64,000 nucleotides of DNA from Streptomyces sp. NBC_01142 (lineage in GTDB: Bacteria > Actinomycetota > Actinomycetes > Streptomycetales > Streptomycetaceae): positions 1,302,001-1,366,000 of the forward strand of contig NZ_JAPEOR010000001.1 in assembly GCF_026341125.1 (NCBI RefSeq). The letters are read 5' to 3'. The position numbers were made by a program, and so were the translations under genes. The notes below the pieces were generated by a model, which was given only the letters and a program-made list of their open reading frames with translations, made no database searches and was not told the origin of the DNA. Shown piece after piece: positions 16,571 through 26,167 of the stretch (position 1 is its first letter; every line of letters starts with the position of its first letter).

Positions 16571-17356
16571 GTGACCTCGATCGACCGCCGCGGCACACTG
16601 CGCGCGGGGGTGGGGGCTGCCCTCACGGGCGTCCTCGCCACGGGCTGCACCGACGGCGGCCCCTCCCCGGCGCAGCCCGCACCGCCCGCCACACCGTCCC
16701 GGCCTTCCCGCAGACCCCGTCCCGCATCCGCACCCGGCCCCCGCCCCTTCCCGGGGCAGCCCGTCGAGATCGAGCACGGACCCCGCGACCGCGACCGGGT
16801 GGCCCTCACCTTCCACGGTCACGGCGATCCGGCCACCGCCAGGGCCGTCCTCGCCGAGGCCGAGCGGGCCGGCGCCCGTATCACCGTGCTTGCCGTCGGC
16901 AGTTGGCTCGACACGTACCCGGAGCTCGCGCGCCGGATCCTCGACGGCGGCCACGACCTCGGCAACCACACCCATCGCCACCTGAGCATCTCGACGATGT
17001 CCGCGACACAGGCGTACGCCGAGATCAGCGACTGCGCCGAACGGCTGCGGCAGCTCACCGGGTCGATCGGCACCTGGTTCCGCCCCTCGCGCACGCAGTA
17101 CGCCACCCCTCTCGTCAGCAGGCTCGCCCGCCGGGCCGGCTACCCGCACGTTCTCTCGTACGACGTCGACTCCCTCGACTTCACCTCACCCGGCGGTCCG
17201 GCCGTCGCCCGCAACGTCGTCGGGCAGACCCGGCGCGGGTCCGTGGTGAGCCTGCACTTCGGCTATGCGGACACGGTCGCCGCACTGCCGGCCCTCCTCG
17301 ACGGACTCGCCCACCGCGGCCTGCGCGCGGTGACCACCACGGAGCTGCTGATCTGA
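16571..17356 (+). CDS. NodB-like (polysaccharide deacetylase fold) lipoprotein lacking motif-1 aspartates
   Basis: 261 aa from GTG 16571 (alternative GTG 16502 with GGGAGG). Twin-arginine-like start DRRGTLRAG and lipobox LATGC, Cys26, then a Pro-rich linker (30-63). NodB-like domain follows: LTFHGHGDP (79-87) takes the place of motif 1 TFDDGP, so both catalytic/metal Asp are absent; motif 2 NHTHRH keeps the His pair; motif 3 FRPSRTQYA and a late SLHFG are present. Either a variant metal site or a non-catalytic carbohydrate-binding role. The stop overlaps the start of the beta-propeller gene by one base, so both exported lipoproteins are made together. Confidence 0.85.
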   Translation: MTSIDRRGTLRAGVGAALTGVLATGCTDGGPSPAQPAPPATPSRPSRRPRPASAPGPRPFPGQPVEIEHGPRDRDRVALTFHGHGDPATARAVLAEAERAGARITVLAVGSWLDTYPELARRILDGGHDLGNHTHRHLSISTMSATQAYAEISDCAERLRQLTGSIGTWFRPSRTQYATPLVSRLARRAGYPHVLSYDVDSLDFTSPGGPAVARNVVGQTRRGSVVSLHFGYADTVAALPALLDGLAHRGLRAVTTTELLI

Positions 17357-18543
17357 TGCACCCGACGACTCCCTTCCCCACGCGGACCACCGCGCTGCTC
17401 GCCGGCGCCCTCCTCGCCCTGCTCGCGGGCTGCGGCTCGCCCGCCGAGACGACGCAGGCGCGGGGCACCGACGCCGCCGTGCCGCCCGTCAAGCCCGAGA
17501 AGACCGTGTCGCGCGGACTGCCCGGCATGCCGCCGGTGCTCGATCCGGACGACGTCTACGCGGCCGACCGGCCGAACCTGCTCTCACCCACGGTCAGGGG
17601 CTTCCCGTCCCGGGTGTACGTCCCCAACACCAACTCCAACACCGTCTCGGTCATCGACCCCACGACGTACAGGGTCATCGAGACGATCCCGGTCGGCGCC
17701 CAGCCGCAGCACGTCGTCCCCTCCTGGGACCTGAAGACCCTCTGGGTCAACAACAACCGGGGGCATACGCTCACCCCCATCGACCCGGCCACCGGGGTCG
17801 CGGGCAAACCGGTCGAGGTGCACGACCCGTACAACCTCTACTTCACGCCGAACGGCAAGTACGCCGTCGTGATGGCCTCCCTGGACCGCGAGCTCGTCTT
17901 CCGCGACCCGCACACCATGGACCGGATCAAGAGGGTGCCCGTCTCCTGCTACGGCGTCAACCACGCCGACTTCTCCGCCGACGGCCGGTACTTCATCGTC
18001 TCCTGCGAGTTCTCCGGCGAGCTGCTGAAGGTCGACACCGAGAAGATGGAGGTCATCGGCCAGCAGAAGCTGCCGTTCGGCGGCGCGATGCCGCAGGACG
18101 TGAAGATCTCGCCGGACGGCAGGACCTTCTACATCGCCGACATGATGGCCCACGGCATGTGGGTGCTCGACGGGGAGAAGTTCACCACCCCCCGGCTGCT
18201 GCCCACCGGCAAGGGCTGTCACGGCCTCTACATCGGCCGTGACTCCCGGGAGATGTACATCACCAACCGCGGCGAGGGCTCCGTCTCGGTCTTCGACTTC
18301 AAACAGAACGAGCTGACCAGGAAGTGGCGGCTGCCGGACGGCGGCAGCCCGGACATGGGCGGTGTCTCGGCGGACGGCAACGTGCTGTGGCTGTCGGGGC
18401 GCTACGACTCCGAGGTGTACGCCATCGACACCAGGTCGGGTGAGCAGCTGGCCCGTATCGCGGTGGGCAGCGGCCCCCACGGACTGGCGGTCTATCCGCA
18501 GCCCGGCCGCTACTCGCTCGGCCACACCGGGATCTTCCGTTAG
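17356..18543 (+). CDS. YncE-like beta-propeller lipoprotein
   Basis: 395 aa, ATG overlapping the previous stop (TGATG). Lipobox LLAGC, Cys26, then a ~60-residue linker and repeated propeller blades of the YVTN/YncE type (RVYVPNTNSNTVSVIDPTTY, ETIPVGAQPQHVV, YAVVMASLDRELVFRDP, YFIVSCEFSGELLKVD, TFYIADMMAHGMWVLDG, MYITNRGEGSVSVFD, LWLSGRYDSEVYAID). These are surface-anchored seven-blade folds used for binding; no enzyme residues can be named. Co-translated with the deacetylase-like lipoprotein, suggesting a joint envelope function, perhaps in glycan handling. Ends at a bidirectional terminator facing the P450. Confidence 0.9.
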   Translation: MHPTTPFPTRTTALLAGALLALLAGCGSPAETTQARGTDAAVPPVKPEKTVSRGLPGMPPVLDPDDVYAADRPNLLSPTVRGFPSRVYVPNTNSNTVSVIDPTTYRVIETIPVGAQPQHVVPSWDLKTLWVNNNRGHTLTPIDPATGVAGKPVEVHDPYNLYFTPNGKYAVVMASLDRELVFRDPHTMDRIKRVPVSCYGVNHADFSADGRYFIVSCEFSGELLKVDTEKMEVIGQQKLPFGGAMPQDVKISPDGRTFYIADMMAHGMWVLDGEKFTTPRLLPTGKGCHGLYIGRDSREMYITNRGEGSVSVFDFKQNELTRKWRLPDGGSPDMGGVSADGNVLWLSGRYDSEVYAIDTRSGEQLARIAVGSGPHGLAVYPQPGRYSLGHTGIFR

Positions 18544-18700: not shown

Positions 18701-19891
18701 TCACCACAGCACCGGCAGCCGTTCCGGCAGTCGTTTGATGAACCCCGTACGCCACACCAACTGCTCTTCCGGGACGGCGAGCCGGAGCCCGGGCAGCCGG
18801 TCCACCAGCGCGGCCAGCGCCACCTCCGCGTGGGCGCGGCCGAGCGCGGAGGCCGGGCAGAAGTGCCGCCCGCCGCCGAAGGACAGATGGGGATTGTGCG
18901 TACGGTCCAGATCCAGGCGCTCAGGGTCCTTGAAGACCTCCGGGTCGAAGTTGGCGCCCTCGACCAGGACCAGTACCAACTCGCCCGCGCGGACCAGGAC
19001 GTCGCCGAGCTGTACATCGGCAAGGGCGAGGCGCGGCAGACCGTCGCCGATCGACAGGTTCCAGCGCAGCAGCTCGTCGACGGCGCGGCCCATCCGCTCC
19101 GGGCGCTCGCGCAGCGGGCCGATGAGCTCCGGACGCTGCAGCAGCGCCAGCACGGCCAGGACGAGGAAGGCGGAGGTGGAGACCGCCCCCGCACCGAACA
19201 GCGACACGGCGACCGCGCCGAGCATCTCGTCGGTCAGATGCGCCGACTCCTCGTCCTCCCGCAGTGCCGCCAACTGGCCGAGCAGGCCCGTGCGTTCGGA
19301 CTCCGGAACGTTCAGCCGCTCCACCATGTACTCAAGGTCCTTGTACCAGTTGAGCTGCGACCCCTCAAACGTGTGCGGGCTGGTCATGAAGGCGATGTCC
19401 AGACCGGACATCAGCCGTCGCCAGTCGCCGAACGGCACCCCGATCACCTTGCAGTGCAGCGCCGCCGAGAAGGGGTCGGCGAACCCCGCACGGAGGTCGA
19501 ACGGCGGGCCCTCGGCGAGCATCTGGCCGATCAGCTCATCGGCGGTGGCGCGCAGCCAGCCGTGCAGCCCTTCGCCCGCACGCGGGCTGAGTGCCTTCAT
19601 CACCGCCTGGCGCAGCCCCGCGCTGTTGATGTTGCCCATGTTGTTGACGACCTCGGGCGGGATCGTCAGCGCGTACTGCCGTGGCGCACCCGGGGCGGCC
19701 GTGTCCTTGAGGCTGAACCGTTCGTCCCCCAGCACCTGTTTGGCCAGCGGGTAACTGCTCACCAGCCAGGCGCTGTCCCCGGTGAGGGTGCGCACCCGGG
19801 CCACCGGCTGCTTCTCGCGCAGCCGGGCGCACTCCGCGGGGAGGACATCGCCTCGCCGGGAGAGCGGGAAGTCAAGCTGCTCGACGGTCAT
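18701..19891 (-). CDS. CYP121-like cytochrome P450 (predicted cyclodipeptide coupling enzyme)
   Basis: 396 aa from ATG 19891 (GGAAGGA upstream), exactly the CYP121A1 length as I recall it. ATG 19933 is an alternative. Heme ligand Cys345 in FGGGRHFCPASALGR. The I-helix reads FGAGAVSTS: Ser where most P450s have the proton-relay Thr, and no acidic residue before it, as in CYP121 (Ala233, Ser237). Other shared blocks are WLVSSY, VVNNMGNI, ALHCKV, RLATADIQVGDVLVR-like ALADVQLGDVLVR, LVLVLVEGANFDPE, QLVWRT and the ending PERLPVLW. CYP121 joins the two Tyr rings of cyclo(Tyr-Tyr) to form mycocyclosin. Pocket changes: Leu61 (Met62), Ile385 and Lys386 (Gln385, Arg386). Overlaps the cyclodipeptide synthase by 20 bp. 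No ferredoxin gene is adjacent. Confidence 0.93.
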   Translation of the reverse strand: MTVEQLDFPLSRRGDVLPAECARLREKQPVARVRTLTGDSAWLVSSYPLAKQVLGDERFSLKDTAAPGAPRQYALTIPPEVVNNMGNINSAGLRQAVMKALSPRAGEGLHGWLRATADELIGQMLAEGPPFDLRAGFADPFSAALHCKVIGVPFGDWRRLMSGLDIAFMTSPHTFEGSQLNWYKDLEYMVERLNVPESERTGLLGQLAALREDEESAHLTDEMLGAVAVSLFGAGAVSTSAFLVLAVLALLQRPELIGPLRERPERMGRAVDELLRWNLSIGDGLPRLALADVQLGDVLVRAGELVLVLVEGANFDPEVFKDPERLDLDRTHNPHLSFGGGRHFCPASALGRAHAEVALAALVDRLPGLRLAVPEEQLVWRTGFIKRLPERLPVLW

Positions 19892-20663
19892 CGTCCGCGG
19901 TCCTTCCGACGGATTCGGGTCGTACGACGGCATAGGCCTGGTTGCGGGCGGCGCGCAGTCCGCCGCCCTTTGCGTAGAGCAGTTCCGTGAGCGGCATCAG
20001 GTGGTGATAGCAGGACACGGAGCTGGGGACGTCGAGAATTCCCGGAGTATCGAGAAAGAAAGGGAGTTCCGCGGCGATGTAGGCGAGACAGGCGGACCGC
20101 TGCCGGGCGGTCATGGGCAGGCCGCCGGGCAGTCTCGCGCCCAGGAAGTGTTCCACCATCGCATCGCAGCTCTTGCGGAATTCCTCGTCGGTGGCGAGGA
20201 AGTGCTGCACGCGGCGGTGCAGGAGTTGGTACACCGGGTTGCCGGAGAATTCCGACAGCGCCCGCACGTGGACGGTGAGGCCGTGCGGTGCGGCCGCCTC
20301 GACCCCGGCCAGGATGCGCCGGCGCACGGCCTTGAGCTCCTTGGCCGCGCGCCGGGCGGCATGGTCGTCGGTGTGGCCGAGGGCCGCGAACATCTCGGCG
20401 ACGTGCAGATCGGCGTAGACGAAATCCACCGCGGTGAAGTGTGCGGCTGCCCAGCGGGTGAGTTCCGCGATGCGCCGGGCATTGAAATAGCTGTTCCCGG
20501 GGGAAACCCCGATCAGAACGTGGTCGCCCTCGTCCCAGGTGATGTGGCAATGGGGGCTGTAGGGCTGGAACGTGAATGTGGCGGTAGTGATCGTCACTGT
20601 GAGAACGCCCTCGCGTCGCTTGTCCCTGGGAGCCCTGCGCTCCTGGTGTGGCGACGACGCCAT
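19872..20663 (-). CDS. Cyclodipeptide synthase, Rv2275-like (predicted cyclo(Tyr-Tyr)-type)
   Basis: 263 aa from ATG 20663, preceded by GGAGA seven bases away; the open frame reaches 20795 but that part holds a palindrome. These enzymes take two aminoacyl-tRNAs and form a cyclic dipeptide. Nucleophile Ser54 in IGVSPGNSYF with Asn57 three residues on, Tyr195 and Glu199 (AYIAAELPFFLDTP), Tyr219-His220 (SCYHHLMPL): the full NYH-subfamily pocket. Spacings Ser-Tyr 141, Tyr-Glu 4, Tyr-Tyr 24 equal those I recall for Rv2275 (Ser88, Tyr229, Glu233, Tyr253). Other Rv2275-like blocks: VDFVYADLHVAE, LRA(A/S)RNQ. First gene of a two-gene operon with the P450; not part of the conserved core order, so accessory. 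Confidence 0.95.
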   Translation of the reverse strand: MASSPHQERRAPRDKRREGVLTVTITTATFTFQPYSPHCHITWDEGDHVLIGVSPGNSYFNARRIAELTRWAAAHFTAVDFVYADLHVAEMFAALGHTDDHAARRAAKELKAVRRRILAGVEAAAPHGLTVHVRALSEFSGNPVYQLLHRRVQHFLATDEEFRKSCDAMVEHFLGARLPGGLPMTARQRSACLAYIAAELPFFLDTPGILDVPSSVSCYHHLMPLTELLYAKGGGLRAARNQAYAVVRPESVGRTADDDRRAA

Positions 20664-20738
20664 GAAGTTATCTCCGGGCGGCGGAGAGTGACGAAGGGCC
20701 TCGAGTGATTTGGCGCGAACTCGGCCCAACGGGGCGGA

Positions 20739-20769
20739 AAATACCCTTCCGTAATACGGAAGGGTATTT
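20739..20769. promoter_or_regulatory. Perfect 14-bp inverted repeat in the leader of the cyclodipeptide synthase
   Basis: Arms aaatacccttccgt and acggaagggtattt separated by aat. It lies 75 bp upstream of the synthase ATG and 177 bp from the divergent EF-hand gene. Its AT-rich ends and near-odd symmetry suit a dimeric repressor operator; a hairpin in the transcript is the alternative. The regulator is not encoded adjacent. Confidence 0.7.
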
Positions 20770-20945
20770 GAAGCCTTTTCTGTCGCCCGGCTCACCGGCC
20801 TCCGGGGTCACCATCCTTCCGGGGCGCGCGACACCCCCGGCTCACCCGGCGACGAGCGGCGCCTCCGACAGCCCGCGCAGGTGCGGCGGCGACCGGGCCG
20901 TTAATCTGACTGCCGTCAGTAATGCACCAAGAAGGGGCGGAAGCA

Positions 20946-21161
20946 GTGGCGGACATCGAAGAGGCGCGCAGGGCGTTCGAGCGCTACGACCTGAACGGCG
21001 ACGGGCTGATCACCGCGGCCGAGTACAAGAGCGTGATGGCGCAGCTGGGCGACTTCAATGTCACCGAGACGGTCGCCGAAGCAGTGATCAAGACCAAGGA
21101 CGCCAACGGCGACGGTCAGCTGACCTTCGACGAGTTCTGGGCCTCGCTGAACAAGGCCTGA
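20946..21161 (+). CDS. Small EF-hand calcium-binding protein
   Basis: 71 aa from GTG 20946 (ATG 20922 would add eight residues). Two EF-hand loops: [12 protein letters not shown] (residues ~17-28) and [12 protein letters not shown] (~53-64), with Asp/Asn ligands and the -12 Glu. Mostly helical otherwise. Streptomyces encode several such calerythrin-like proteins, some tied to aerial growth and calcium binding; the target of this one is unknown. Divergent from the cyclodipeptide synthase, convergent with sdaA. Confidence 0.92.
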
Positions 21162-25800: not shown

Positions 25801-25996
25801 CCCATCTGTCATCGGAACCTGAGAGGTTCGCCGCGACCACACGTCATGATGGTCGTGACTTGCACCTTGGGTGGAGCCACTCGACAGCGGCTCGCTTTTC
25901 AGATCTGCCTCATCACACGCGGTACGGGGCCTGAGAGATTCAAGGGAGGGACTTGCTCCTTCGGCGCCCGGCGCACACAGTGGCCAGGACTCTCCC
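25801..25996 (-). ncRNA. Tandem glycine riboswitch upstream of gcvT
   Basis: On the minus strand, two aptamers of the gcvT class follow each other. The first begins GGGAGAGUCC (25996-25987), has GGAGCAA and ends in GAAUCUCUCAGGC. The second has AAGGUGCAA and ends in GAACCUCUCAGGUU. The two CUCUCAGG motifs are 112 bp apart, joined by a linker with CAGAUCUGAAAAGCGAG. Tandem glycine aptamers normally turn on gcv operons when glycine is in excess. A GGGGAGGAUUGUCCUCG hairpin just downstream may be part of the expression platform. Confidence 0.95.
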
Positions 25997-26167
25997 GCGT
26001 GGATTCAAGCGGCCGGTATGCAGTTGGCGCGCACATCATTGCACGCATCGTGGGGGAGTGGGGTGTCCGGCCCACGGTCGAGCCTCAGCCGCAAAACGGT
26101 TGTGCTGTATTACCGTTTCTTTACACTTCATGGGCAAGGGTGGGATGACCCGACATGGGGGAGGCTG

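Follow-up and report, generated by a model that had tools for sequence, protein, structure and literature searches.

The systems closest to the locus described here pair a cyclodipeptide synthase (CDPS) with a cytochrome P450, and their substrates are of two types. On the tryptophan side, gut5414 of Streptomyces xanthophaeus NRRL B-5414 is the source of guanitrypmycins, in which cyclo(Trp-Trp) (cWW) is joined to a nucleobase, and PtmB produces cWW adducts with guanine and with hypoxanthine (accessible portions of PMC13122648 and PMC7954767). On the tyrosine side, the gym gene cluster makes mycocyclosin and guatyromycines from cyclo(Tyr-Tyr) (cYY) in Streptomyces, and the accessible text of PMC10092475 presents it as a separate, widely distributed cluster. 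The specificity of such synthases can be approached through eight residues of pocket P1, which Gondry et al. (2018; PMC5816076, consulted in part) related to the first amino acid.

The window that we analyzed is a stretch of 64,000 nucleotides from Streptomyces sp. NBC_01142 (contig NZ_JAPEOR010000001.1, positions 1,302,001 to 1,366,000), whose genome has a single CDPS gene. We take locus L029 to be gut5414 (GutA5414/GutD5414), because the genome of NRRL B-5414 shows one CDPS. It resembles the window in its two-gene operon, Trp-type P1, leader element and neighboring genes, with a P450 76% identical to that of the window, but its P1 ends in Ala instead of Ser and the CDPSs are 60% identical. 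PtmB, from the PtmA-PtmB pair of Kitasatospora mediocidica (structure 8yxt), is 71% identical to the window P450 and falls in the same clade (support 100/100); for its close relative in K. indigofera (P450 87% identical), the window's neighbors are absent from the flanks seen. The L029 P450 and PtmB are the nearest characterized relatives found. The gym cluster shares the enzyme family, and Tyr-type loci with P450s 70–89% identical to GymB1 have the window's leader element, but P1 is there of the form VG(V/I)TMLFN, the P450 has Met385, the neighbors are others, and the window P450 is 60.5% identical to GymB1. Rv2275-CYP121 of Mycobacterium tuberculosis is also a CDPS-P450 pair, with the catalytic residues, the I-helix Ala/Ser and the Cys345 of the window; it differs in its Tyr pocket, in having Gln385-Arg386 where the window P450 has Ile-Lys, and in a P450 identity of 56%. 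Trp-type pairs of this kind are already published and common in Streptomyces, and as an enzyme pair the window's is an ordinary family member. The new part is the leader, which matters more than the enzyme pair.

Organization of the operon

An initial annotation of this DNA had described a compact operon of two overlapping minus-strand reading frames, for an NYH-type CDPS and a CYP121-like P450, set in core gene order. This description is borne out: both frames are present, and empty sites exist. Pfam and NCBIfam agree on the CDPS and P450 superfamilies (PF00067 at E = 1.3e-15 for the P450 frame), and the CDPS combines the PF16715 fold with the S, N, Y, E, Y and H of NYH enzymes (AlbC 37, 40, 178, 182, 202 and 203). 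The pocket residues listed in that annotation (Ser54, Asn57, Tyr195, Glu199, Tyr219 and His220) occupy invariant columns at the positions claimed in an 11-row alignment, and the heme Cys345 and C-terminal PERLPVLW are present in the 396-aa reading of the P450. Its choice of ATG 20663 as CDPS start has to be revised. Several close homologues start with MTITT or MTLIE, which corresponds to GTG 20597 in the 11-row alignment, while ATG 20663 falls within the leader element, upstream of where transcription probably begins, and the CDPS therefore probably occupies 19872–20597. For the P450, ATG 19891 is the most likely start, which gives an overlap of 20 nt with the CDPS, as in locus L001.

Table 1. 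Features of the CDPS-P450 locus, in coordinates of the window.
Feature	Position	Strand	Remarks
Beta-propeller lipoprotein gene	17356..18543	plus	left-hand neighbor kept; common in genus
Cytochrome P450	18701..19891	minus	396 aa; CYP121/GymB/GutD family, Trp-type branch
Cyclodipeptide synthase (CDPS)	19872..20597	minus	241 aa, GTG start; PF16715 E = 4.7e-86; P1 LGVALFFS, P2 MHFAHMP; start as in close homologues
Structured leader RNA element	20604..20664	minus	61 nt, three helices; R1 75.4 bits, E = 5.5e-15 (the window is a row of R1's alignment)
-10 box TAACTT	20665..20670	minus	begins 18 nt before GCCACACC
Palindrome	20739..20769		perfect, 31 nt: AAATACCCTTCCGTA-A-TACGGAAGGGTATTT; 15-nt arms, 1-nt center; upstream of CDPS promoter
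EF-hand protein gene	20922..21161	plus	small, calcium-binding type; divergent from operon; right-hand neighbor kept beside Trp-type pairs

Specificity of the synthase

We read P1 at the columns of AlbC positions 33, 35, 65, 67, 119, 185, 186 and 200. The positions were checked against the motifs of PMC5816076, and in the alignment they give LGVALFFS for the window CDPS and VGVTMLFN for Rv2275. In the accessible part of the same paper, VGVTMLFN is the tyrosine motif, Asn at P1 position 8 is essential for tyrosyl recognition, and a (V/I)A pair marks Trp-accepting NYH CDPSs, with one Phe-preferring enzyme sharing that pair. The window CDPS carries (V/I)A at P1 positions 3–4 within an LG-x-A-LFF-type motif, as in the cW2X group, and with this P1 and a place outside the 100/100 Tyr clade it is not a member of the Rv2275-like cYY group. 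Most likely it belongs to the Trp-type specificity group, and a Trp-containing cyclodipeptide is predicted.

The two P1 types divide the relatives as follows: 48 Tyr-like and 72 Trp-like among the 120 listed of 232 CDPS homologues, and 42 Tyr-type and 38 Trp-type CDPSs in the best 80 of 236 loci. The CDPS tree separates the Trp and Tyr groups by a branch with support 100/100 and leaves the window outside the Rv2275 clade; when the distant AlbC is used as root, the Tyr clade attaches beside the window (88/90), on a long branch.

Classification of the P450

Of the best 80 of 236 loci, 78 have a readable P450, the two left out being one without a P450 and one with a partial P450, and in all 78 the P450 type goes with the pocket type. 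Residue 385 is Ile in 36/36 Trp-type and Met in 42/42 Tyr-type partners, and twelve P450 columns split the groups fully; the window P450, which was not among the defining sequences, is Trp-like at all twelve. The cues on which the CYP121 comparison had been built are spread over both types, with Cys345, Ala233 and Ser237 common to 36/36 Trp-type and 42/42 Tyr-type P450s and PERLPVLW terminating seven Trp-type and eight Tyr-type P450s. As judged from these alignments, they mark the wider family and are not diagnostic of a mycocyclosin synthase.

The P450 tree has a Trp/Tyr branch supported at 100/100, and an 84-row quick tree gives the same split. The window P450 carries the GutD/PtmB signature and falls in a 100/100 clade with the L029 P450 and PtmB, not in the CYP121/GymB clade. 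The expected grouping with Rv2275 and CYP121A1 is not seen, both proteins lying outside the 100/100 clade of Rv2275, CYP121 and GymB1, an outcome which the initial annotation had named as refuting its reading, but an AU test with the window P450 moved to the base of the Tyr side gives p = 0.121 and does not reject that alternative. Inside the Trp-type clade, the L029 P450 and PtmB sit together in one sub-branch (88/89) adjoining that of the window, and since both are in this one neighboring sub-branch we dropped the argument that the window is bracketed by two cWW enzymes.

Two names were set aside. The PDB title of 9o4d, 'Cytochrome P450 121', is a mere label and was not accepted as a function. 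Locus L001 of S. purpureus JCM 3172, whose P450 is nearly identical to 9o4d, was not equated with gut5737, because GutD5414 and GutD5737 are 57% identical (PMC7954767, in part) whereas the L029 and L001 P450s are 76% identical, so that either the strains or the figures disagree; none of our conclusions uses gut5737.

Predicted product

We read the product as Trp-type because of the P1 motif LGVALFFS, the co-segregating P450, its twelve Trp-like columns, and the clade that it shares with the L029 P450 and PtmB. The CDPS would draw on Trp-tRNA for the first residue and most likely for the second as well, giving cyclo(Trp-Trp), and the P450 would oxidize the indole and couple guanine or hypoxanthine as in the guanitrypmycins, with no Tyr-Tyr biaryl closure. 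The expected product is thus most likely of guanitrypmycin type, both product and P450 reaction being predictions from sequence. Combined with a leader RNA that would control the CDPS in cis, via a signal shared with Tyr-type operons and a LuxR gene (see below), this cWW-to-nucleobase pathway is the account that we consider probable. The pocket reading changes the compound to be looked for: the masses are those of cWW-nucleobase products, not m/z 327.

The main rival, which we judge unlikely, is that the CDPS makes cyclo(Trp-Tyr) (cWY) or another cyclo(Trp-X), which the P450 then couples to a nucleobase or dimerizes. Specifically, cWY keeps this place because pocket P2 has no predictive rule and because a Tyr-type P2 appears next to LGVALFFS in the accessible table of PMC5816076, where A or H is the last letter of the Trp/Trp rows; the S. 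purpureus JCM 3172 CDPS, 77% identical to that of the window, has the listed pair LGVALFFS/MTFPQIP. However, the same paper gives a S. purpureus CDPS as 100% cWW, and its accessible text shows the motif table without row labels. The window's P2, MHFAHMP, is also nearer to the MHFSVMP found in S. xanthophaeus NRRL B-5414, a strain with a pathway that begins at cWW, and the window P450 lies in the clade of the NRRL B-5414 P450 and PtmB.

That the pair makes cYY and mycocyclosin, as first proposed, is very improbable: identities of 45.7% to Rv2275 and 56.2% to CYP121, automatic names on relatives such as cyclo(L-tyrosyl-L-tyrosyl) synthase and mycocyclosin synthase, and a 7-bit near miss of the NCBIfam model for mycobacterial cyclodityrosine synthase (293.3 bits against a cut-off of 300) speak for it, but P1 is Trp-type and lacks Asn at position 8, four more of its eight positions differ from Rv2275, and the Tyr clades exclude both proteins.

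Structure of the leader element

One strongly conserved block stands upstream of both Trp-type and Tyr-type CDPSs. In the window it sits between the -10 box and the CDPS start, 6 bases from the GTG. Of 77 leaders, 75 have a TANNNT beginning 14–26 nt upstream of GCCACACC, against 8.3 expected from base shuffles, and in 56 the distance is exactly 18 nt; from this spacing the transcription start is probably within the first helix.

The alignment of CDPS leaders uses 36 of the 79 extracted rows. Under the three-helix model 97.8% of its 464 cells are paired, 31 cells show changes at both partners, compared with 10.2 for shuffles (0/500 as high), and the covariation score is 0.195 against at most 0.080 for slid structures. 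The two measures on which relatedness has the least influence are unexceptional in this alignment: four pairs have a double change (41/500 shuffles as high), and there are ten further pair types (66/500). When the LuxR leaders and the decayed loci are included (28 rows), 92.3% of cells are paired, and the values for double-change pairs and further pair types become 26/500 and 6/500. On the CDPS tree, with some rows dropped, three pairs show at least two, three and four changes between fully paired states, and RNAalifold on its own recovers 12 of the 13 pairs. The folding of single sequences gives weaker support: against shuffles the window has a modest z of -1.23, three relatives have -3.05, -3.90 and -0.86, and four LuxR leaders have -0.20, 0.53, -3.00 and 0.50, so that several relatives are no better than shuffles. 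CACACC and GGGA are nearly invariant, and the 3' strand of the closing helix abuts the Shine-Dalgarno region. The leader thus has the conserved 5' structure and the compensatory changes by which a cis-regulatory RNA is recognized, with two of five covariation measures unexceptional.

Distribution of the leader element

Two models were used for searching, R1 built from CDPS leaders only and R2 from CDPS and LuxR leaders; the filters of the genome scans lose weak matches. With R2, each of the best 80 of 236 loci, in both subfamilies, has a single match to the element upstream of its CDPS; 19 of these loci are in the model. R1 gives 111 matches in 99 of 392 genus genomes (E ≤ 0.001): 101 directly before a CDPS, six before CDPS and/or P450 remnants, two before a small LuxR-type gene, and two (G563 and G123) at which neither a CDPS nor a LuxR-type gene was found. 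The element accompanies 99 of the best 100 CDPS matches (at least 44% identity; the exception is in G568) and none of the next ten. In wider samples the element is rare: it was found in 12 of 335 genomes of a class sample (E ≤ 0.001), 11 times before a CDPS, one of these (L210) in another family, and once before the LuxR gene, and in 5 of 396 genomes of a phylum sample (E ≤ 0.01).

One of the LuxR-type proteins, of 120 aa, matches the GerE domain, and a protein search finds the LuxR gene in 5 of 100 genomes (E ≤ 1e-20). R1 detects the element before it clearly at two of the five loci (L194 and L195), marginally at one (E 0.32) and not at the other two; weaker R1 matches precede the gene in G060 (E 0.0022) and G123 (E 0.0047). 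At five loci (L202, L204, L194, L195 and L157) a leader variant stands 6–7 bases before the start of the ~120-aa LuxR/GerE gene.

Two of the decayed loci, L148 in G128 and L198 in G560, have the leader followed by CDPS remnants and a Trp-type P450 of nearly full length, which seems to have outlived the synthase there. Genome G128 has the element four times: three copies belong to Tyr-type CDPS-P450 pairs, and the fourth goes with the Trp-type P450 whose CDPS is mostly gone.

Proposed function of the leader element

Searching Rfam 15 with the window leader gave no credible match, nor did the leader stretches of L204 and L071 under permissive settings; over these searches the best hit to a leader had E 0.041, far below its gathering score. 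At gathering scores, six loci gave only a cobalamin riboswitch in L029. The matches to P17 and HCV families are due to chance, driven by the palindrome. The whole window gave only a glycine riboswitch elsewhere (RF00504, 63.5 bits, 25910–26007, minus strand), near glyA. The open papers found on cyclodipeptides or CDPSs together with riboswitches, UTRs or structured RNA showed no description of such a leader, and the accessible parts of PMC11610984 and PMC6582537 contain none either.

The leader reads as an undescribed family of cis-regulatory RNA that would control the CDPS-P450 pathway, as suggested by its conservation, covariation and distribution. Transcription would start at, or close to, the 5' strand of a folded leader RNA of ~45 nt, which would then control translation of the CDPS (or stability of the message) in cis; the position at the 5' end and the helix at the Shine-Dalgarno region would suit a translational control element. 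Short riboswitches of this placement exist, for example of the preQ1 or SAM-II type. The window leader is like them in its small fold next to the Shine-Dalgarno region, but it has no credible Rfam family and a ligand role is only putative. The controlling signal would be common to Trp-type operons, Tyr-type operons and the small LuxR-type regulator, and is unlikely to be one specific cyclodipeptide because the element stands before operons of the cWW and cYY types and also before an unrelated regulator. We suggest tentatively, at somewhat under even confidence, that the leader founds a riboswitch-like class that ties CDPS-P450 operons for both cWW and cYY and the LuxR-type gene to one signal. 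As for the signal itself, our guess would be a purine base, the co-substrate in both known pathways, or the aminoacyl-tRNA pool that the CDPS taps.

Alternatively, the conserved block may not be a regulatory RNA at all: it could be a site on the DNA, immediately after the promoter, to which a regulator binds, or it could encode a leader peptide. Some regulators do bind just downstream of a promoter, the spacing to the -10 box is near-fixed, two covariation measures are unexceptional, and one reading frame out of three is open in all but 1 of 79 leaders. However, the helices change in a compensatory manner and the strands of the outer helix are ~35 nt apart. A peptide is further opposed by the distance from GCCACACC to GGGA, which is 26, 27 or 28 nt and thus shifts the frame (79 leaders; 15 values misread by the script), and by the lack, by eye, of a conserved start codon in the core. 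We therefore regard this alternative as decidedly unlikely and retain the regulatory RNA.

The two-gene operon has no regulator gene of its own. A related cluster, gut24283, was reported to be silent in culture (accessible text of PMC13122648), and a leader that stands before 99 of the best 100 CDPS matches from 392 genomes offers a candidate explanation for cluster silence that is cheap to test. Its presence before the small LuxR-type gene gives a second handle on the signal.

Genomic site and upstream palindrome

In 31 of the 38 Trp-type loci (best 80 of 236; E ≤ 1e-8) the pair is flanked by the EF-hand and beta-propeller genes seen in the window, and these neighbors were found at 0 of 42 Tyr-type loci in flanks of up to 4 kb. 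The propeller, which we take to be YVTN-like, is encoded in 43 of 61 genomes searched, and 28 of 30 propeller loci fetched are without the CDPS-P450 pair; in five of these 28 the EF-hand gene follows the propeller gene within ~140 bases. From the kept flanks and the empty sites, the pair is an accessory cassette that occupies a fixed site.

The inner 19 nt of the palindrome have no further exact copy in the genome. We consider it a possible operator, a role that the comparison supports only in part as a conserved one: a loose TTCCG-N5-CGGAA-like pattern occurs in 17 of 39 Trp-type leaders, namely the window and, in a similar place, 16 others with shorter forms, and in 0 of 42 Tyr-type leaders.
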